Shown piece by piece: positions 7,188 through 29,505 of a stretch of 30,297 nucleotides of DNA. A program made the position numbers and the translations under genes. Within the stretch, counting starts at the first letter, position 1; every line of letters begins with the position of its first letter. This DNA comes from a virus. The stretch is taken from positions 64,001-94,297 of the IMG/VR virus record IMGVR_UViG_3300029882_000012, one strand, 5' to 3'. The notes below the pieces were generated by a model, which searched no databases, was not told the origin of the DNA, and saw only the letters and a program-made list of their open reading frames with translations.

Positions 7188-7322
7188 TTATTCTTTGGTT
7201 TTTGGTATTTGCTTTTCAGTAAATTTACTTTTAGTTAGAAATAATAAATCTTTATTGAGGTCGGCTAATTTAATCGGGGTTACTTCAATAACCTTTTCTT
7301 TTTTTACATATTTTCTTTTCAT
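7188..7322 (-). CDS. 44-residue basic protein coupled to transposase
   Basis: ATG 7320-7322 overlaps the TGA of the transposase gene (ATGA). The protein begins with a highly basic stretch (MKRKYVKKEK) and is Lys-rich throughout, so it may bind nucleic acid. The exact coupling to a transposase gene is noteworthy, because an insertion sequence would normally end in an inverted repeat here. Confidence 0.5.
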   Translation of the reverse strand: MKRKYVKKEKVIEVTPIKLADLNKDLLFLTKSKFTEKQIPKTKE

Positions 7323-8239
7323 GCTGTTAGGGTTTTATAGGTTAATCTGCCAATCATATTTTCTAATATAAAGTCGAACCGTGTTGATGTTGGCATTTTT
7401 CTGGTGTTGTATCTCAAAGCACACTCTTGTGCATATTCGTTGGTGTGTTTTGGTGAAATTTGATGATATGTGCCACAAATAGTTCTTTTAAATTGACTCC
7501 AAAAGCCGTCAATATTGGCGGTGTGATAATGTTTTCGAGCGTATTCACCCTGTTCGTGTTCTAAAACTTCATGGTTAAATTTTGTCTTTTTGTATGCTCC
7601 GTGCCCATCAGTAATTAGTGTACTTCCGCTTTCAATCCATTCGTTCATTATTGGCTGTAATGTGGCTTTATCTTCTTTTGCTACTTTACCAACCACTAGA
7701 TTACCATTGCGTTCAACCATTCCAAAAACAGGAGTTTTATTGATTGCTCCCGTGCCTTTGGCGTTATCTAAATCTCTTTTTGATTTGTGTTTGAAAGATG
7801 TTTTGCCGCCTACAAATGTACAATCGGCTTCGATTTCGCCGCTTAATTTATCAGTATTGTTGCTGTTGCCGAAAGCATAACGCAACCGATGCAACATAAA
7901 CCATGCTGATTTTTGGCTTACATCAATATCTTTTCCTAACTGTATACTACTAACTCCCTTACGATGGCTTGAAAAAACATATAAAGCCAAAAACCATTTT
8001 ATTAATTTAATATTTGAACTTTCGAAAATAGTACCCGTTCTTGCATTAAAATATTTATTGGTATTGGCACATTTAAAACGATTGTTTTTGCATTTATAAA
8101 CCTTTGAAGTTTCATCAAACGGTGATACTACATTGCCATTCCACCTAATTTGTTCTAAATGATTAATACACGCTTGCTCATCAGGAAATACAGCTAAAAA
8201 GTCGTGTATACTTTTGAAATATATATCTTGTTCTTTCAT
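7319..8239 (-). CDS. IS1595-family-like DDE transposase
   Basis: 306 residues from ATG 8237-8239. N-terminal zinc-ribbon-like region (YKCKNNRFKC, then NARTGTIFE) is typical of IS1595/ISXO2-type transposases. The catalytic core is recognisable: EADCTFVGGK gives the first acidic residues, LITDGHGAY the second Asp, and NIDGFWSQFKRTICGTYHQ with the following YAQECALRYN the C-terminal part. This enzyme class cuts and joins DNA ends of its element. Unlike a normal insertion sequence, no clear terminal inverted repeats or target duplication are visible, and its stop overlaps the next phage gene's start, so it may be a resident phage gene. A 7-bp-arm palindrome overlaps its start codon. Confidence 0.85.
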   Translation of the reverse strand: MKEQDIYFKSIHDFLAVFPDEQACINHLEQIRWNGNVVSPFDETSKVYKCKNNRFKCANTNKYFNARTGTIFESSNIKLIKWFLALYVFSSHRKGVSSIQLGKDIDVSQKSAWFMLHRLRYAFGNSNNTDKLSGEIEADCTFVGGKTSFKHKSKRDLDNAKGTGAINKTPVFGMVERNGNLVVGKVAKEDKATLQPIMNEWIESGSTLITDGHGAYKKTKFNHEVLEHEQGEYARKHYHTANIDGFWSQFKRTICGTYHQISPKHTNEYAQECALRYNTRKMPTSTRFDFILENMIGRLTYKTLTA

Positions 8240-8256
8240 AGTGTAAATATACACTA
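8239..8256. promoter_or_regulatory. Palindrome over transposase start (possible operator)
   Basis: TAGTGTA and TACACTA are perfect 7-nt arms around AATA. The palindrome overlaps the last base of the ATG and the putative -7 box, so a bound repressor would block transcription initiation. It could alternatively be an RNA hairpin at the extreme 5' end. Confidence 0.5.
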
Positions 8257-12298: not shown

Positions 12299-12763
12299 TC
12301 ATGTTAAATGTGAAAACTTCTTAATTGGTAATTCCATAGCATTCTTTAAAGTCCATCCCCGAGATATTCTATCCTGAATATTTCTATAATATTTTTTATC
12401 CCAGTTTAATTTTAATCTTAACAATGCTAATGGCATCTTTTCTCCTTCATATTCAACAAATACAGTTATATCACGATTTGAATTGTTAATAATCGGAATA
12501 ACCCATCTGCAATTTTCAGGATAATATCCTTTATTGTTATCTTTCCTGTCTAATTGCAATTCGTCTGAAAACCCATTATTGATAGCCCATTCTTTGAATA
12601 CAATAAATGAGTCCCATTCATCGCAAACCTTAATTCCTTTATCGAAATAATATTTACTTTGTTTGTGTGTTGGTTTACAACGTCCTTGCATTGAAGCCCA
12701 ACGTTCAAATAATTTAGTTTTTGATTCGTAATGTTTAGTGCCTCTTTTTCTCGAATTTTTCAT
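12299..12763 (-). CDS. HNH-like homing endonuclease
   Basis: 154 residues. It matches a widespread phage HNH-type family: RWASMQGRC near the N-terminus, YYFDKGIKVCDEWDSF, then LQLDRKDNNKGYYPENCRWV, which holds the Asp-Arg and Asn residues of the nuclease core. The C-terminal region ends in SRGWTLKNAMELP, a small DNA-binding repeat seen in relatives. Such genes are free-standing selfish elements that cut intron- or gene-free alleles. It sits between paralog genes and the 11868 gene within the P1 operon, so it probably invaded that operon. Confidence 0.8.
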   Translation of the reverse strand: MKNSRKRGTKHYESKTKLFERWASMQGRCKPTHKQSKYYFDKGIKVCDEWDSFIVFKEWAINNGFSDELQLDRKDNNKGYYPENCRWVIPIINNSNRDITVFVEYEGEKMPLALLRLKLNWDKKYYRNIQDRISRGWTLKNAMELPIKKFSHLT

Positions 12764-12828: not shown

Positions 12829-13269
12829 TTAATCTACAAATTCTTTGTAGATGTCTTGGAATTGTTTTCCGGCATAGTCCGACAACTCTCTCGATTTAAA
12901 AACGAGGCGAGACCCGACAATCGTGCGCACGTACCAGAAAATCGAAGTCGAAAACGAAAAGCCGAAGCCCGATTTGTATTCAAAGTAAGGGAAGTATTTA
13001 TACTCACTTGAATTAGTCCAAGTTGGTGTCCATCCCTCATTTAAAACCTGTGCTATCATTTTAATTTTACGATATGCTATTTCGTCTTTGCTTAAATAAG
13101 TGTTCGAGTTATCGAATTTTGTTTTTGTAATACCTAACTCATTTAAAACATCCTCAAAGTTTTTAATTCTATCGGTTATCTTTTCGGATGCCTTTTTAAC
13201 CGCATTTACTTGTGCTTGTGTTAATTCAATTTCCACAGGCTTATTATTTATTGTTACTGTAACTTTCAT
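12829..13269 (-). CDS. Phage protein with conserved GSRLVF core, paralog of 13281-13730
   Basis: 146 residues. The N-terminal region (VTVTINNKPVEIELT) is beta-rich and repeated in the neighbour. The C-terminal core SGFGFSFS, then W, TIVGSRLVF and YAGKQFQDIY is nearly identical to that of 13281-13730. I have seen this type of sequence in Bacteroidota phages, but no function is known to me. The core DNA (12898-12972) is GC-rich and far more conserved than the rest of the gene, suggesting gene conversion or recent exchange. Confidence 0.7.
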   Translation of the reverse strand: MKVTVTINNKPVEIELTQAQVNAVKKASEKITDRIKNFEDVLNELGITKTKFDNSNTYLSKDEIAYRKIKMIAQVLNEGWTPTWTNSSEYKYFPYFEYKSGFGFSFSTSIFWYVRTIVGSRLVFKSRELSDYAGKQFQDIYKEFVD

Positions 13270-13280
13270 TTGAGTGATTG

Positions 13281-13730
13281 TTATTTGGTTAAAAATTTAT
13301 TGTAAATATCAATGAATTGAGTACCCGCATATTCGGCCAATTCCGCAGTTGGAAAAACGAGGCGAGACCCGACAGTCGTGAGCTCGCGCCAGTAACCCGA
13401 AGCCGAAAACGAAAAGCCGAAGCCCGAATACTTAAAATATGGAAAATGTTTATATTGGTTTGTATTCTTCCAATCTGGTTTCCACCCCTCACAAAGTAAT
13501 TCCACAATGATGAACATTTGAGCGGTTCCATTTATAGCCTCTTCAAAATCATTTTCTGGTTCTGGATATGGAAGCGAATTAATTGGGTCAATCCCTTTTA
13601 TTTGGCAAGCGTCCTCCCATGTTTTAAGGCGGTCTGTAATTTTCATAGAGGCAACTTTAATCTTCTCTACTTGTTCTTTGGTTAAGGTTATTTCTACGTC
13701 CTTACCATTAATGTTGATTGTGGTTTTCAT
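13281..13730 (-). CDS. Phage protein with conserved GSRLVF core, paralog of 12829-13269
   Basis: 149 residues. Same organisation as its downstream neighbour: N-terminal ININGKDVEITLT, a middle region with GWKPDWKN.N.YK.FPYF, and the core SGFGFSFS, then TTVGSRLVF and YAGTQFIDIY. The two genes are 11 nt apart, a tandem duplication. Core residues between SFS and VGSRL differ (ASGYWRELT versus TSIFWYVRT) while both flanks are conserved. Function unknown. Confidence 0.7.
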   Translation of the reverse strand: MKTTININGKDVEITLTKEQVEKIKVASMKITDRLKTWEDACQIKGIDPINSLPYPEPENDFEEAINGTAQMFIIVELLCEGWKPDWKNTNQYKHFPYFKYSGFGFSFSASGYWRELTTVGSRLVFPTAELAEYAGTQFIDIYNKFLTK

Positions 13731-14422: not shown

Positions 14423-14453
14423 CAAAGATACGGATAAATACGTAGCATGCAAA
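14423..14453 (-). promoter_or_regulatory. Promoter P1 with conserved palindromic spacer
   Basis: Minus strand: TTTG, 19 nt, TATCTTTG. The spacer carries CATGCTACG and the imperfect palindrome TACGnATwwATnCGTA that recurs in P2 and P3. The first 33 nt of leader (14390-14422) closely resemble the P2 leader, sharing the sense of TCAAGGC and AAAAAACGTAA. Confidence 0.8.
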
Positions 14454-14468
14454 TTTATTTTAATTTAT

Positions 14469-16373
14469 TTATTCTTCATACAAACTCCCATCCGCCTGAT
14501 TGGCATTTTTGAGTGCTTCGAAGTATGTATGGCTTTCTTTGGGTAGTATTCCGCTTTCTGCTGAATTAAATCTAAATTGGGGTGGTACGTCATTTAAATC
14601 CTCTTTGGATTCCTCTGTGGTTCTTACCGATAGTCCCCCTTCATCTATATCGGCATCACTAAGTTGTTCGCTACTACAATTACAATTATGCACAATTCCT
14701 GTCTCGGTAATATAGCTTACATCTTCTTCAATTGTTAAATTATAAACGAAGTCTGAATAATTTTTTATCTTTACATCTTCAATTATACCCATTACATTAT
14801 GACAGTATATTCTATACAAGGCCATATAGAAAGAATCGAAGCCATTGAGGGGTGCAGCATCACCGTGATTCTTAATGAACTCTATACTTTGCAACTCCAA
14901 CCTATGGCAAAACTTTCTAAACGATGGAATCTTAAAAATAATAGAGTTCTCCCTGAAATCTTCAGGCAACTTAACATACCAATGCGTAATCCTACCGAGC
15001 GTGTAGAGGTACAATGGATAGAAGCAGATGAACGGAAACACGATACAGGCAAACGCATGAGAAGCTTTGTTACTAAAGTCCCTCATCCTAATCTTGGAAA
15101 GACCAAAGAAACTTCTCCTTCTTTGAGAATTGTTTCTGAAAAACTTAAAATCAATACCGCTGCACGACGACCAGAGGTTAGGGCTAAACTCTCTAAAATA
15201 GCCACAGAGTTTTATGCAAAAAATCCTGAAAAGCATATGAATGCTAATGCTAAGCCCTCTCGTTGCGAGGGTATTATTTTGGATTATTTCAGTCGATTTA
15301 ACGCCATACATAATCATAGAGTTGGTAGATATTGGATTGATGTTTTTATCCCTGAATATAATATTGGTATCGAAAGTTTTAACCATTCTCGCTTGCCTTT
15401 TGATTATGAAAGACATGAATTTATAGCGTCCCGTGGAATAACAATTATTTATATAGGGAATGATTGCGTTAAAGAACCCTTTCTTTCTAAGATTAAGCAG
15501 TATATCACCGACATTGATTTCGTCAGACCTAACCCATCCTTTAATAGTGAGGACACGGTGATTTTGGGTGTAAAGAACGTTACTGTTTTTTTTAATAATG
15601 TTAAACAACTTACCGTTAAACGGATTTTTGTGCACTCTTGTTATTTTACGTTCGTTTCCACTACCCCCGATAACTGTTTGTTCAATATTTAATTTTTCAA
15701 TTTCAACATATCCATCTTTTGTTAATATTTTTGTATTTCCCGGCACGCAATTAAAACCATTTGGTGGGTATATTAAATCGCCTTCGGGGTCACCAATTTT
15801 ATAAATATTACCAACGAGTAAAAGATGTTCTTCCCGTGGATGTTGTGAAGTTGTTTCTAAATATTTCCAGTATGGGAAAATGTCGGAATCTTCTTTATAT
15901 CTTTTGAATTGTTCTCCAGCTACGGCTTGCCTAACACTGGTGTCATATTCTGTCCTAAGCCAAGTTTCTTGGAATATGTCGGTTACTTTTTTGGCATCCG
16001 CTTTAAATTCTGAATACCCTTTTCGTACTTTGTCCTCATCGAAAACAAGTGACTGCAACATTTTCGATTCTGCTAAACTTTTACTCGCACTAAATTGACA
16101 ACTGTTCAACATAAACCGCTCGTATATCGAAGTGTCTTTGAAATTATTAAAATCCTCAATAATCCCTGTATTTTCCTTGATTACACTTTGAAAAAGCTGG
16201 TTGTATTGCTTGTAAATTGGGGTAAAAATGCCCTTTCCACCGTCATAAACGTACTTATGCTCGTCATCGGCAATCTTGTTTAGCTTGGAAATGGTTTTAT
16301 TTATTCGATTCTGCTGTTTTTTATCGATACGTTTTGGAGCAAGGTTTACATACTCGCTACCTAAAAAGACCGC
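14469..16373 (-). CDS. MuF minor head protein interrupted by an intein; N-terminus probably supplied by frameshift from portal
   Basis: MuF (Mu gpF/gp30-like) proteins sit at the portal and help assemble the head. Signature: PREEHLLLVGNIYKIGDPEGDLIYPPNGFN, broken after Asn by an intein and continuing CNCSSEQLSDADIDEGGLSV. The listed segment begins at the first codon after the A10 run; the frame has no ATG, GTG or TTG before ATG 16110-16112, yet the 87 upstream codons look fully coding (for example GSEYVN, KRIDKKQQ, YDGGKGIFTPIY). Hence the N-terminus is probably made by a -1 shift from the portal frame, giving a fusion, unless a base is missing in the sequence. The extein parts are 87+121 residues before and 71 after the intein. 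Confidence 0.8.
   Translation of the reverse strand, partial: AVFLGSEYVNLAPKRIDKKQQNRINKTISKLNKIADDEHKYVYDGGKGIFTPIYKQYNQLFQSVIKENTGIIEDFNNFKDTSIYERFMLNSCQFSASKSLAESKMLQSLVFDEDKVRKGYSEFKADAKKVTDIFQETWLRTEYDTSVRQAVAGEQFKRYKEDSDIFPYWKYLETTSQHPREEHLLLVGNIYKIGDPEGDLIYPPNGFNCVPGNTKILTKDGYVEIEKLNIEQTVIGGSGNERKITRVHKNPFNGKLFNIIKKNSNVLYTQNHRVLTIKGWVRSDEINVGDILLNLRKKGFFNAIIPYINNCYSTGRYKFMSFIIKRQARMVKTFDTNIIFRDKNINPISTNSMIMYGVKSTEIIQNNTLATRGLSISIHMLFRIFCIKLCGYFREFSPNLWSSCSGIDFKFFRNNSQRRRSFFGLSKIRMRDFSNKASHAFACIVFPFICFYPLYLYTLGRITHWYVKLPEDFRENSIIFKIPSFRKFCHRLELQSIEFIKNHGDAAPLNGFDSFYMALYRIYCHNVMGIIEDVKIKNYSDFVYNLTIEEDVSYITETGIVHNCNCSSEQLSDADIDEGGLSVRTTEESKEDLNDVPPQFRFNSAESGILPKESHTYFEALKNANQADGSLYEE
14685..15749 (-). 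other. Intein within MuF (355 residues, Cys1 to His-Asn, Cys+1)
   Basis: Self-splicing protein element. Block A is CVPGNTKILTKDG with Cys1. Block B is YTQNHRVLTIKGWV with the TxxH-type TQNH. Blocks F and G are VYNLTIEEDVSYITETGIVHN followed by Cys+1. All residues for standard class 1 splicing (Cys1, block B His, penultimate His, terminal Asn, Cys+1) are present, so splicing is expected. The region between the splicing blocks shows no LAGLIDADG or HNH domain in the sense frame; instead it is the complement of an endonuclease gene on the plus strand (14799-15692). The insertion point is the most conserved part of MuF. Confidence 0.88.
14799..15692 (+). CDS. Vsr-like (EDxHD family) homing endonuclease encoded antisense inside the intein
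   Basis: 297 residues. N-terminal DNA-binding part: a helix-turn-helix-like stretch LNELYTLQLQPMAKLSKRWNL ending in IPMRNPTERVEVQW. C-terminal nuclease: PSRCEGIILDYF (Glu), GRYWIDVFIPEYNIGIE (Asp, then IE), SFNHSR (His) and FDYERHEF (Asp), followed by GITIIYIG, matching the E-D-x-H-D pattern of Vsr-fold homing endonucleases such as I-Bth0305I. The catalytic region is at about residues 155-225. The last 45 residues lie opposite the intein's N-terminal splicing block and may be read-through. The gene is intact, runs against MuF, and has no TTA, CTA or TCA codon. No firm promoter was identified. Family call is by motif; activity is inferred. Confidence 0.82.
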   Translation: MTVYSIQGHIERIEAIEGCSITVILNELYTLQLQPMAKLSKRWNLKNNRVLPEIFRQLNIPMRNPTERVEVQWIEADERKHDTGKRMRSFVTKVPHPNLGKTKETSPSLRIVSEKLKINTAARRPEVRAKLSKIATEFYAKNPEKHMNANAKPSRCEGIILDYFSRFNAIHNHRVGRYWIDVFIPEYNIGIESFNHSRLPFDYERHEFIASRGITIIYIGNDCVKEPFLSKIKQYITDIDFVRPNPSFNSEDTVILGVKNVTVFFNNVKQLTVKRIFVHSCYFTFVSTTPDNCLFNI

Positions 16374-17788
16374 TTTTTTTTTTCGGCCATTTGAAAAGTG
16401 GCATCTGGTTTTACAAGTTGATCTTGTTTTGGTGCGGGTGCTTTTTGAAAGTATTCTTGTGGTAATCCATTTTCAATGAAGAATTTAGGCGTTAACTGAA
16501 ACCCGTTTTCGTTTGCAACGGCTGATACAATTTGCATATCTGCATAAGTGAGCGGTTTTGAAGTGTTATATCCAAATAGTCCGTCTTTTGGTATATTCTT
16601 ATAGAACTTTTGGATTTTAGTTAGGTAATCGCTGTTTAAAACCGCTAAAATGTAAGGCAATAACCCTGCAACCCTATCATCTAATGTTCTTTCTTCAACT
16701 TCACCTAAAGCCCTGTTACCACCCTTACTATTGGATTGTGTGATTGCCCTACCATAAACCATTTTTTCAATGTCGGCCTCTGCATCACTATCAAAATCTT
16801 GGTAAATTTTGTGCATTGATGATGACGTTCCCGGCTTTTCAAAATCAATTTCTATTGACTTAACTATTTTGCCGTCATTATCTATTGTGTATGGGTAAAC
16901 AAGCCCGTTTGTGGGGTCAATATTGGTCGCTAATGCAATGGCATCGTTCTTATAATCGTTTCTTGGGTTGCCGTTTGCATCCAAACTTCCATCATCTTGC
17001 GGGTAACCAACTGTTAGTAATGGGAATGCTAATCTACGCCCTGCTGCCAACCAGTTATCACTATTAATGTTCATTTGAATGAACTTAAATGATATGGGCT
17101 GCATCCATCCTAAGAAGCTTTCATAGTTGGTCGATGGCTGTACGAAAAGTAAGTTGTCGTTTTCATCAAAAATCTCTCCATCATAGAATGAAAAAGTGTT
17201 TGCCTTTAGCATTCTGTTGATTGGGTCTATTTGCTGCATTGGGTACTTGTAGCATTTTTCGGTGTAGGGGTCAAAATTAAGTCCGCTAAAGCCCCAAAAG
17301 TAAGAATATAGTATCTCACGTCTCAATTGCATTTGCCACGGCTTAGAACAAAGCTCTTGCGTTAATTCAGGTATCTCATCACCGTTCTTGTTGTTGAAGT
17401 AAAACGGCACTTTGTCTAATGCCATTCCCAACTTTAAAAATAACGATTGAATGAAAGGGGATTTTTCGTAACACCATGAAGTTAGGGTTGCATAGCTTTG
17501 AGTATAGCCCTGTTTGATGGCTTGATCGCAAGCATCCCTCCATGTGCCTGTATCCCATTCTCGTTGATAATAAGATGGATAGACCCAAGACCCAACGTTT
17601 TGACCTGAATACTTAGGAATGACAAACGGATTGACACGTGGACTGCCCGTAGCTGTTTTTGCGTTCTTTTGAACCGTACCAAAACCACCGCCTCCTTTAG
17701 TAGAACCTGTTATGTTCGTGCCTGTCGGTGTTCCTATTTGCCCTAAATGTGCCCTGCTCTTGTTTCTCCCCCGTTTGCTCTTTCCCAC
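16361..17788 (-). CDS. Portal protein (Mu gp29 / DUF935-like)
   Basis: 475 residues from GTG 17786-17788, preceded directly by an in-frame TAA. The portal forms the dodecameric ring through which DNA enters the head and to which the tail attaches. The N-terminal 50 residues are basic and Gly/Thr-rich. The region GNRALGEVEERTLDDRVAGLL followed by LTKIQKFYKNIP and LTPKFFIENGLP is typical of the Mu gp29-like family; WGFSGLNFDPY and INSDNWLAAGRRLAFPLL lie in the core. The length is normal. The C-terminus ends in Glu-Lys-Lys-Lys-Arg-Ser-Phe over an A10 run, where a -1 shift would carry translation into MuF. Confidence 0.85.
   Translation of the reverse strand: MGKSKRGRNKSRAHLGQIGTPTGTNITGSTKGGGGFGTVQKNAKTATGSPRVNPFVIPKYSGQNVGSWVYPSYYQREWDTGTWRDACDQAIKQGYTQSYATLTSWCYEKSPFIQSLFLKLGMALDKVPFYFNNKNGDEIPELTQELCSKPWQMQLRREILYSYFWGFSGLNFDPYTEKCYKYPMQQIDPINRMLKANTFSFYDGEIFDENDNLLFVQPSTNYESFLGWMQPISFKFIQMNINSDNWLAAGRRLAFPLLTVGYPQDDGSLDANGNPRNDYKNDAIALATNIDPTNGLVYPYTIDNDGKIVKSIEIDFEKPGTSSSMHKIYQDFDSDAEADIEKMVYGRAITQSNSKGGNRALGEVEERTLDDRVAGLLPYILAVLNSDYLTKIQKFYKNIPKDGLFGYNTSKPLTYADMQIVSAVANENGFQLTPKFFIENGLPQEYFQKAPAPKQDQLVKPDATFQMAEKKKRSF
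16371..16384 (-). promoter_or_regulatory. Candidate -1 frameshift site joining portal and MuF
   Basis: Minus strand: G, ten A, then GCG. In the portal frame the codons are GAA AAA AAA AAG, so A AAA AAG is the classical -1 slippery heptamer (as in E. coli dnaX). A -1 shift skips the portal TAG at 16361-16363 and enters the open MuF frame. A possible downstream stem pairs AGCGAG with CTTGCT, beginning about 14 nt after the slip. No upstream Shine-Dalgarno-like stimulator is seen. Alternatives are transcriptional slippage on A10 or a missing A in the sequence. Confidence 0.6.
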
Positions 17789-23198: not shown

Positions 23199-23229
23199 CA
23201 AACATACGCATAAATACGTAACATGCAAA
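23199..23229 (-). promoter_or_regulatory. Promoter P2 with conserved palindromic spacer
   Basis: Minus strand: TTTG, 19 nt, TATGTTTG. The spacer has CATGTTACG and the same TACGnATwwATnCGTA imperfect palindrome as P1 and P3. The leader 23167-23198 shares long stretches with the P1 leader. Confidence 0.8.
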
Positions 23230-23647: not shown

Positions 23648-23857
23648 TTATTTTTCTAATGGTGGCTGATGAAGCATTGGATTTGAATCTATAAAAATAT
23701 CGTTTGATTCAATATGCTTTACTTGTCCATTTTTATCTAAACGCACAATCCATATTGAATTAATGTCGATTGTATAATCGATTATGAAATACGCATAGCC
23801 ATCGCCAAGCGGTGTTTTTACTTTTATAAGGGGGTTTAATTGTAAAATTGCGGTCAC
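23648..23857 (-). CDS. Hypothetical small protein coupled to HNH gene
   Basis: 69 residues from GTG 23855-23857, which overlaps the TGA of the HNH-AP2 gene (GTGA). Beta-rich (IKVKTPLGDGYAYFIIDYTID). No domain recognised. A GTG start coupled to an endonuclease gene suggests the endonuclease inserted directly in front of it. Confidence 0.5.
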   Translation of the reverse strand: MTAILQLNPLIKVKTPLGDGYAYFIIDYTIDINSIWIVRLDKNGQVKHIESNDIFIDSNPMLHQPPLEK

Positions 23858-24375
23858 GGTTTAATAATATTTAAGTTAGCAAATTCCCCAAAATATTTAA
23901 CTGCTTCTTTGTTGTATGCTAAAGCAGCGTCAGATTCTTTCTCAAATACTCCAATATAACCTTTTCTTTCTGGCAATCCTATTTGAGCTTGCCATTTTTT
24001 ATCTCTTTTATGAAATGTTACGCCTAAATATTGAGAATATGAACCAATGTTTGGATTTCTGTTTCGACTATTTTCTCTTTTGGTAGCACCTCTTAAATTT
24101 TCGATTCTGTCGTTGAGGGTATTTCGATCTATATGGTCAACACACTTTGGTAAAAACCCATGATGCCATAGGAAAATTAATCTTGACGCTATATATCTTT
24201 TATAGCCGATTCCTATCATTACTCGGCTTCTAAACTCTTTTTTATTTATGTATCCCGCTATCGAACCTACTTTATTTTTATTAGTTTGCGGGTTTTTCCA
24301 ATAGAGCACTCCGTCTTTATAATCAAATAAATATTTTACTAACTCTTGCGTTAATTCTTTTTCTATCTTTGCCAT
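23854..24375 (-). CDS. HNH endonuclease with AP2 domain (homing endonuclease)
   Basis: 173 residues. N-terminal NUMOD/HNH_3 part: LFDYKDGVLYWKNP, GYIN, RSRVMIGIGYKRYIASRLIFLW, then the nuclease CVDHIDRNTLNDRIENLR with the His-Asp and Asn residues. The C-terminal AP2 domain has SQYLGVTFHKRDKKWQAQIG and YIGVFEKESDAALAYNKEAVKYFGEFA. Such free-standing endonucleases cut related alleles lacking them. It lies just behind a terminator and the terminase gene, an insertion position typical of phage endonucleases. Confidence 0.88.
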   Translation of the reverse strand: MAKIEKELTQELVKYLFDYKDGVLYWKNPQTNKNKVGSIAGYINKKEFRSRVMIGIGYKRYIASRLIFLWHHGFLPKCVDHIDRNTLNDRIENLRGATKRENSRNRNPNIGSYSQYLGVTFHKRDKKWQAQIGLPERKGYIGVFEKESDAALAYNKEAVKYFGEFANLNIIKP

Positions 24376-29474: not shown

Positions 29475-29505
29475 CAAAGATACGCATTTATCCGTAACAT
29501 GCAAA
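29475..29505 (-). promoter_or_regulatory. Promoter P3 with conserved palindromic spacer
   Basis: Minus strand: TTTG, 19 nt, TATCTTTG. The spacer carries CATGTTACG and TACGnATwwATnCGTA as in P1 and P2. It faces away from the plus-strand glycosyltransferase gene. Confidence 0.8.

Follow-up and report, generated by a model that had tools for sequence, protein, structure and literature searches.

A MuF gene with an intein and an antisense gene within it

The window examined here is the whole of a 30,297-nucleotide stretch of viral DNA (positions 64,001 to 94,297 of IMG/VR record IMGVR_UViG_3300029882_000012). Its minus strand carries a Mu-type portal gene (17788..16361) followed by a gene for a MuF minor head protein that contains an in-frame intein, and the center of this intein is overlapped, on the plus strand, by a gene whose product resembles a homing endonuclease (Table 1). 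The MuF open reading frame (ORF) matched PHROG 220 (minor head protein) at 7e-19 and PF04233 (Phage_Mu_F) at 1.5e-6, the latter slightly under the family cut-off.

Table 1. Positions of the MuF gene, its intein, the antisense gene and their parts in the window
Feature	Position	Strand	Details
MuF minor head protein gene with in-frame intein	14469..16112	-	547 codons, ORF call
Intein	14685..15749	-	355 residues, MuF residues 122-476; C1, block B TQNH (61-64), block F FVYNL, HN355, Cys+1
HINT N part	15486..15749	-	intein residues 1-88; AlphaFold2 predicted local distance difference test (pLDDT) score 83-95; Foldseek matches to inteins 6frg, 6riy and gp41-1, E 5e-6
Intein center, minus frame	14796..15485	-	residues 89-318; open, pLDDT ~30, without Pfam domain
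HINT C part	14685..14795	-	intein residues 319-355; AlphaFold2 pLDDT 83-94
Antisense homing-endonuclease-like gene	14799..15692	+	297 amino acids (aa), codon on codon opposite the intein frame
Helical, helix-turn-helix (HTH)-like DNA-binding part (predicted)	14799..15076	+	residues 1-93; residues 1-70 all helix, pLDDT 70-91; HTH_7/HTH_23 in family
Vsr-like nuclease domain	15261..15527	+	residues 155-243; E157, Y178, D181, E192; profile, AlphaFold and Foldseek
C-terminal tail of plus-strand protein	15528..15689	+	residues 244-297, opposite intein block B; predicted disordered, pLDDT 30-43

The intein frame passes the cut-offs of Pfam Intein_splicing (2.3e-10) and of NCBIfam intein_Nterm and intein_Cterm. 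All residues of a class 1 intein are present in the window (nucleophile C1, block B TxxH, the C-terminal Asn and a nucleophile at +1), and C1, T61, N63, H64 and N355 are invariant across eight aligned inteins; the Edwardsiella and Klebsiella relatives have Ser instead of the penultimate His. The predicted spliced junction, PPNGFN/CNC (slash at the splice point), is the same motif as PPNGFGCRC in the intein-less MuF of Flavobacterium phage fF4. When the intein model was compared with known structures by Foldseek, the top 43 matches had E <= 1e-3, with inteins leading, and both ends of the intein are confidently predicted to adopt the HINT fold. Scans of Pfam, PHROGs and NCBIfam found no endonuclease domain in the intein's own frame. 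A first, sequence-only reading of this DNA had proposed a 355-residue MuF intein with both splicing domains and no in-frame endonuclease; these results agree with it, coordinates included.

The nested arrangement in other phages

Two scans of genome contigs found no relative. The family was reached through two diverged metagenomic contigs, L003 (45% identity) and L004 (36%), whose arrangement is identical to that of the window, then from L004 to Vibrio phages 1.197.A and 1.113.A and, by way of MuF, to Edwardsiella phage MSW-3. Searches by tblastn with the Vibrio and Edwardsiella antisense proteins each matched about 115-120 phage records, and most of those listed lie over annotated MuF/head-morphogenesis genes. 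Among the matches listed are ~65 Salmonella phages, phages of Klebsiella, Gordonia, Pantoea and Pseudomonas, Escherichia coli phage Snoke, Aaphi23, a Helicobacter prophage and Mycobacterium phage Sejanus. The nested arrangement also occurs on phage-like plasmids, in Candidatus Promineifilum (Chloroflexota) and in Streptomyces. The hosts of the phages examined belong to Bacteroidota, Pseudomonadota, Campylobacterota, Actinomycetota and Chloroflexota, and every intact locus whose frames were read through (>30 loci) uses the same antisense register. Among the nested records examined, only that of Salmonella phage PK1 annotates the full-length antisense gene, as a hypothetical protein; in the Snoke record the intein is noted and the antisense gene is not. 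At one locus (L037, Salmonella phage GE_vB_M4), the MuF and antisense frames are both broken, but the record is flagged UNVERIFIED and the breaks may be sequencing errors, and it was set aside.

Both frames are open beyond chance

The difference between the starts of the two frames (14799-14469) is a multiple of three, so that plus- and minus-strand codons pair exactly. In this register (register 0), plus-strand TTA, CTA and TCA are the sole codons that create stops in the MuF frame. In the window's other genes, TTA and CTA make up 61% of Leu codons and TCA 32% of Ser codons, whereas the plus-strand ORF, with 18 Leu and 18 Ser codons, contains none of the three against 16.8 expected (P = 4e-11). 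The same codons are absent from 15 of 15 nested genes tested (single P values of 4e-11 to 5e-3) and from 13 further metagenomic phage loci. Because the plus-strand ORF lacks codons that the phage's genes use so heavily, its openness by chance is excluded on codon usage. Chance often leaves register-0 antisense frames open in the GC-rich phages of Gordonia and Mycobacterium, and those cases therefore depend on homology and the substitution pattern described below. The exact codon pairing, the codon avoidance and the recurrence of the arrangement in relatives together bear out the proposal that an endonuclease gene lies antisense within an intact intein frame.

We also counted, by dynamic programming across all synonymous codings, the antisense stops that a given protein cannot avoid. 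For the window's protein the minimum is 0, 8 and 4 stops in registers 0, 1 and 2. For all members register 0 gives 0 stops; register 1 gives 0 for the GC-rich Vivi2 protein alone, and register 2 gives between 0 and 7, depending on the member. By this count only register 0 always lets an inserted endonuclease gene become transparent with its protein unchanged, and both frames can stay open because TTA, CTA and TCA can all be replaced synonymously.

A free-standing homolog

Acinetobacter phages IME285 and P1068 carry a homolog of the whole antisense gene as a separate gene that converges on an intein-less MuF (...PMCKCRA...), ~60 bp from the would-be intein position. Its protein is 34% identical to the Aaphi23 antisense ORF over 279 aa. 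This gene contains 12 TTA/CTA/TCA codons against 11.5 expected, and a near-identical copy (L060) has 13 stops in the MuF-strand register. The existence of such a homolog implies that the antisense ORFs do not simply mirror a conserved intein, and on its codon use the Acinetobacter locus shows the gene as it looks without a restraining intein frame. We had considered these loci as split-intein versions, with the endonuclease gene abutting a short MuF; this was rejected, as the frames show an intact intein-less MuF and a free-standing gene.

The plus-strand protein belongs to a Vsr-like nuclease family

As a single query the plus-strand protein matched nothing in Pfam, PHROGs, NCBIfam, the PDB or phage records, so its nuclease identity was recognized only through a profile of the family. 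The C-terminal half of the profile matched I-Bth0305I (3r3p, E 2.3e-7) and a Vsr-like protein (3hrl, E 6e-7), and the N-terminal half matched HTH proteins. Foldseek with the model of the plus-strand protein likewise returned 3hrl (probability 1.00) and 3r3p (0.99), followed by Vsr itself (1cw0/1vsr) lower in the ranking. Across 18 aligned members Y178, D181 and E192 are invariant and E157 nearly so, while no His is invariant; Pfam HTH_7 was detected in 13 of the 18 and HTH_23 in 12. These profile and fold matches support membership in a family that joins an HTH part to a Vsr-like (EDxHD-related) nuclease. The sequence-only reading had predicted a full Vsr-like (EDxHD) nuclease with an N-terminal DNA-binding part. 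Its family assignment holds, and nuclease homologs do exist; a strict EDxHD motif is matched only in part, since the H is not invariant.

AlphaFold predicts the N-terminal helices and the nuclease core with confidence and disorder beyond residue 243. The models of the two products are complementary along the DNA: the endonuclease is ordered over 14799-15527 and the HINT domain over 15486-15749 and 14685-14795, with an ordered overlap of ~14 codons.

The DNA-binding part varies among members. On a Streptomyces platensis plasmid (L042, 2501-3121, plus strand) the antisense frame adds a Cys-rich, zinc-ribbon-like segment, CEVCRTVFHPQYKSKGRFCGYDC, ahead of the HTH, and in the L004 antisense protein the HTH unit is duplicated. 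Judged from sequence, these are modular DNA-binding parts.

Substitutions in the intein core follow the plus-strand codons

We tallied substitutions at MuF codon positions 1, 2 and 3 in the exteins and in the intein core of homologous pairs. The ratio of position 1 to position 3 substitutions flips between exteins and core in 11 of 11 pairs. In the Vibrio pair the counts at positions 1/2/3 were 18/4/5 in the core and 26/10/98 in the exteins (P = 2e-7); the flip was also pronounced in Vivi2/Angelicage (P = 1e-13) and LSPA1/STM-ZS (P = 1e-9) and had the same direction in window/L003 (P = 0.008) and window/L004 (P = 0.015). Along the gene, the change of strand in the substitution profile falls between blocks B and F. 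Block B is conserved at every codon position, and block F is dominated by the MuF frame; true dual constraint is concentrated at these edges. Within the core of diverged Guernseyvirinae, endonuclease third positions vary at 0.40-0.53, against ~0.5 for ordinary third positions, and this free variation indicates that the MuF frame is passive there.

The locus is thus an antisense overlapping pair in which both frames are open beyond chance and the antisense frame is constrained at the protein level. We read the minus-frame intein center as a mostly passive open frame, acting as a linker with no conserved domain, because its pLDDT is low, no Pfam domain matches it and substitutions follow the plus strand. 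The idea that one DNA segment serves as both the intein's central domain and its mobility enzyme therefore needs amending: two frames do share the segment, but the center is not a conserved domain. Relatives in which the center was conserved as minus-frame protein and the plus frame was broken would have argued for the reverse; in those we compared, the plus frame is the one conserved in the center.

Intein-less alleles among close relatives

A joined-extein probe detected many intein-less MuF alleles among close relatives, providing the comparison of MuF genes with and without the intein that the sequence-only reading had proposed as a check. Salmonella phage ER10, for example, is intein-less and 97% identical to LSPA1 in the probed exteins, and the 272-residue LSPA1 intein is located exactly at AHPN/CRST (slash at the insertion point), the position of the empty site in ER10. 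Between the window and L004 the exteins are 26% and the endonucleases 39% identical, which fits either transfer from lineage to lineage or slower evolution. In Vivi2/Angelicage the exteins are 99% identical in protein, against 82% for the core. We looked for a homing footprint, a sharp step in divergence at the intein edges, and found that the nucleotide profile is not a clean step in Vivi2/Angelicage and that NFG/STM-ZS has none; this pattern was not used as evidence.

Predicted translation signals of the antisense gene

Many members outside the window's branch have their ATG on the complement of the His codon in the intein's HVYNL(E/Q) motif, and the complement of VYNLE carries a Shine-Dalgarno sequence (GGAGGT or cGAGGTtataaacATG). 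In these members intein block F would therefore double as the endonuclease's predicted ribosome-binding site. The endonucleases of the window, L003 and L004 start elsewhere, without the block F Shine-Dalgarno sequence.

Proposed mechanism and alternatives

We conclude that the locus is very probably a mobile intein whose own center bears the homing endonuclease gene on its opposite strand. On the minus strand, MuF mRNA would be translated straight through the intein, and the HINT halves would fold together, splice and discard the 230-residue center as a linker, leaving intact MuF. The plus strand of this center would be translated from its own start into an HTH and Vsr-like nuclease, which most likely cuts intein-less MuF alleles at the conserved NCRC codons; repair of the cut allele would then copy the intein in. 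Sequence analysis establishes both frames, the nuclease family, the strand under constraint, the conserved arrangement, the free-standing control and the empty sites; we infer splicing, plus-strand expression, cleavage and homing.

Several observations weigh against this conclusion. The alignment behind the AlphaFold models is shallow (8 rows). The window's own start lacks a Shine-Dalgarno match, and its start codon is thus a prediction; Shine-Dalgarno-less starts are usual for Bacteroidota. Promoter scans of the plus strand found none that is conserved, the single weak sigma-70 match, in Vibrio 1.197.A, comparing with 1.2 expected by chance. Finally, the codon-position flip is modest in the window's own pairs, because those pairs are saturated.

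It is improbable, though the least so of the alternatives, that the plus-strand gene is real and has lost homing, with its protein domesticated into, say, an autoregulator that binds DNA, or that its transcript acts as an antisense RNA on MuF. Antisense transcription should affect the late structural gene that it crosses, the H of EDxHD is not invariant, and homing endonucleases typically degrade once fixed (PMC13405050). Nevertheless, the acidic residues D181 and E192, and nearly so E157, have persisted across 18 diverse members, no broken nested copies were found among those examined save the one UNVERIFIED record, and presence/absence polymorphism in close relatives fits ongoing mobility.

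Slightly more improbable still is a functional domain in the minus-frame center, which would make the whole segment truly dual coding. In close pairs endonuclease third positions are indeed less variable than extein ones (18/257 vs. 98/328 codons in the Vibrio pair), but recent gene conversion of the intein explains this low variation, the same positions vary like ordinary third positions in the diverged Guernseyvirinae, and the center has neither a Pfam domain nor a confident model.

A reading of the plus-strand ORF as an artefact is highly implausible; it would then mirror a conserved central domain of the intein and be open by chance, as antisense frames in this register tend to be. Register-0 antisense ORFs are common in GC-rich phages, and the antisense of conserved intein blocks does yield conserved-looking peptides, of which the plus-strand protein's C-terminal tail is an example; but a chance or mirror ORF is ruled out by the homolog that stands free of any intein frame, by constraint that follows plus-strand codons and by profile and fold matches to known nucleases, and the AT-rich members shun TTA/CTA/TCA far beyond chance. 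We give equally little credence to a locus of the fractured-gene type, in which a free endonuclease gene would separate the halves of a split intein: the nuclease type is the same as in such loci, according to the title of Dassa 2009 as cited in PMC10448857 and PMC12350094, but in all nested cases examined the MuF-intein frame runs through as a single ORF, and a split intein was rejected on this ground.

Other features of the window

A 31-bp repeat, TTTGCATGTTACGTATTTATGCGTATGTTTG, occurs at 14423-14453, 23199-23229 and 29475-29505 (all minus strand) and at G000:C1:13524-13554. These four copies in the 94-kb record are all on the minus strand, and none is expected by chance; with its TTTG ... 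TAnnTTTG layout, the repeat looks like a phage promoter of the Bacteroidota type. Adjacent minus-strand genes at 12829-13269 and 13281-13730 encode proteins of 146 and 149 aa, both phrog_11581, and are apparently a tandem duplication. Two HNH endonuclease genes, also on the minus strand, lie in the structural region (12299-12763, phrog_3377; 23854-24375, phrog_99) and with the antisense gene bring the homing-type nucleases to at least three in 30 kb. A transposase-like ORF (7319-8254, minus strand), which we take to be IS1595/ISXO2-like, lies amid phage structural genes; its PHROG matches have no assigned function.

Relation to known systems and significance

According to reviews (PMC3943268), intein endonucleases are fused to their intein. 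The inteins with an in-frame LAGLIDADG endonuclease, such as PI-SceI, PI-PfuI and TliVMA, resemble the MuF intein in having a HINT domain split by a central insertion, a site within a conserved host-protein motif and presumed homing by cutting of the empty allele. In contrast to theirs, the MuF endonuclease is a separate protein encoded on the opposite strand, belongs to a different nuclease family and must be transcribed and translated from a start of its own.

Fractured genes with split inteins and EDxHD endonucleases were reportedly described by Dassa et al. in 2009. These likewise tie a nuclease of Vsr-like/EDxHD type to a phage intein, but there the intein is split over two genes, whereas the MuF intein is one continuous frame running antisense through the endonuclease gene. 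I-Bth0305I, the EDxHD group I intron endonuclease of PDB 3r3p, has a homologous catalytic domain and the same combination of a modular DNA-binding region with a nuclease; the similarity is limited to the catalytic domain, and I-Bth0305I is intron-borne and overlaps no other coding frame. Some group I introns also carry an endonuclease gene oriented against the host gene, and they too nest an antisense gene inside a splicing element. Being RNA, however, they impose no protein frame on the other strand, while the MuF intein needs 200-300 codons open on both strands. The free-standing endonuclease of P1068 and IME285 is of the same protein family over its full length and has the same position beside MuF, but it is not nested, its MuF is intein-less, the MuF-strand frame is full of stops and its codon use is normal.

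We found no description of an antisense or opposite-strand endonuclease within an intein in the full-text literature searched, whose coverage excludes most subscription journals and Dassa 2009, and the two-strand arrangement is probably new to the literature. It had been called unusual from the sequence; with >30 loci it is far from unique to this phage. The arrangement is likely ancient and widespread, a third means of linking an endonuclease with an intein, in which the endonuclease exists only as codon-on-codon antisense, block F serves as its ribosome-binding site, block B encodes its tail and its expression is uncoupled from the host protein, with phages of five or more bacterial phyla keeping it at the MuF site.

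Long two-strand coding is usually doubted, because antisense ORFs often arise by chance. The MuF case is unusually clean, since it offers many diverged homologs, a free-standing natural control, empty alleles and a biochemical activity that can be tested. It explains the use of one particular antisense register and supplies a set of inteins together with candidate site-specific nucleases. Coding on the opposite strand would separate the expression of intein and endonuclease and hide the endonuclease gene from annotation, and it would add a route to intein mobility without a nuclease in the intein's own frame.
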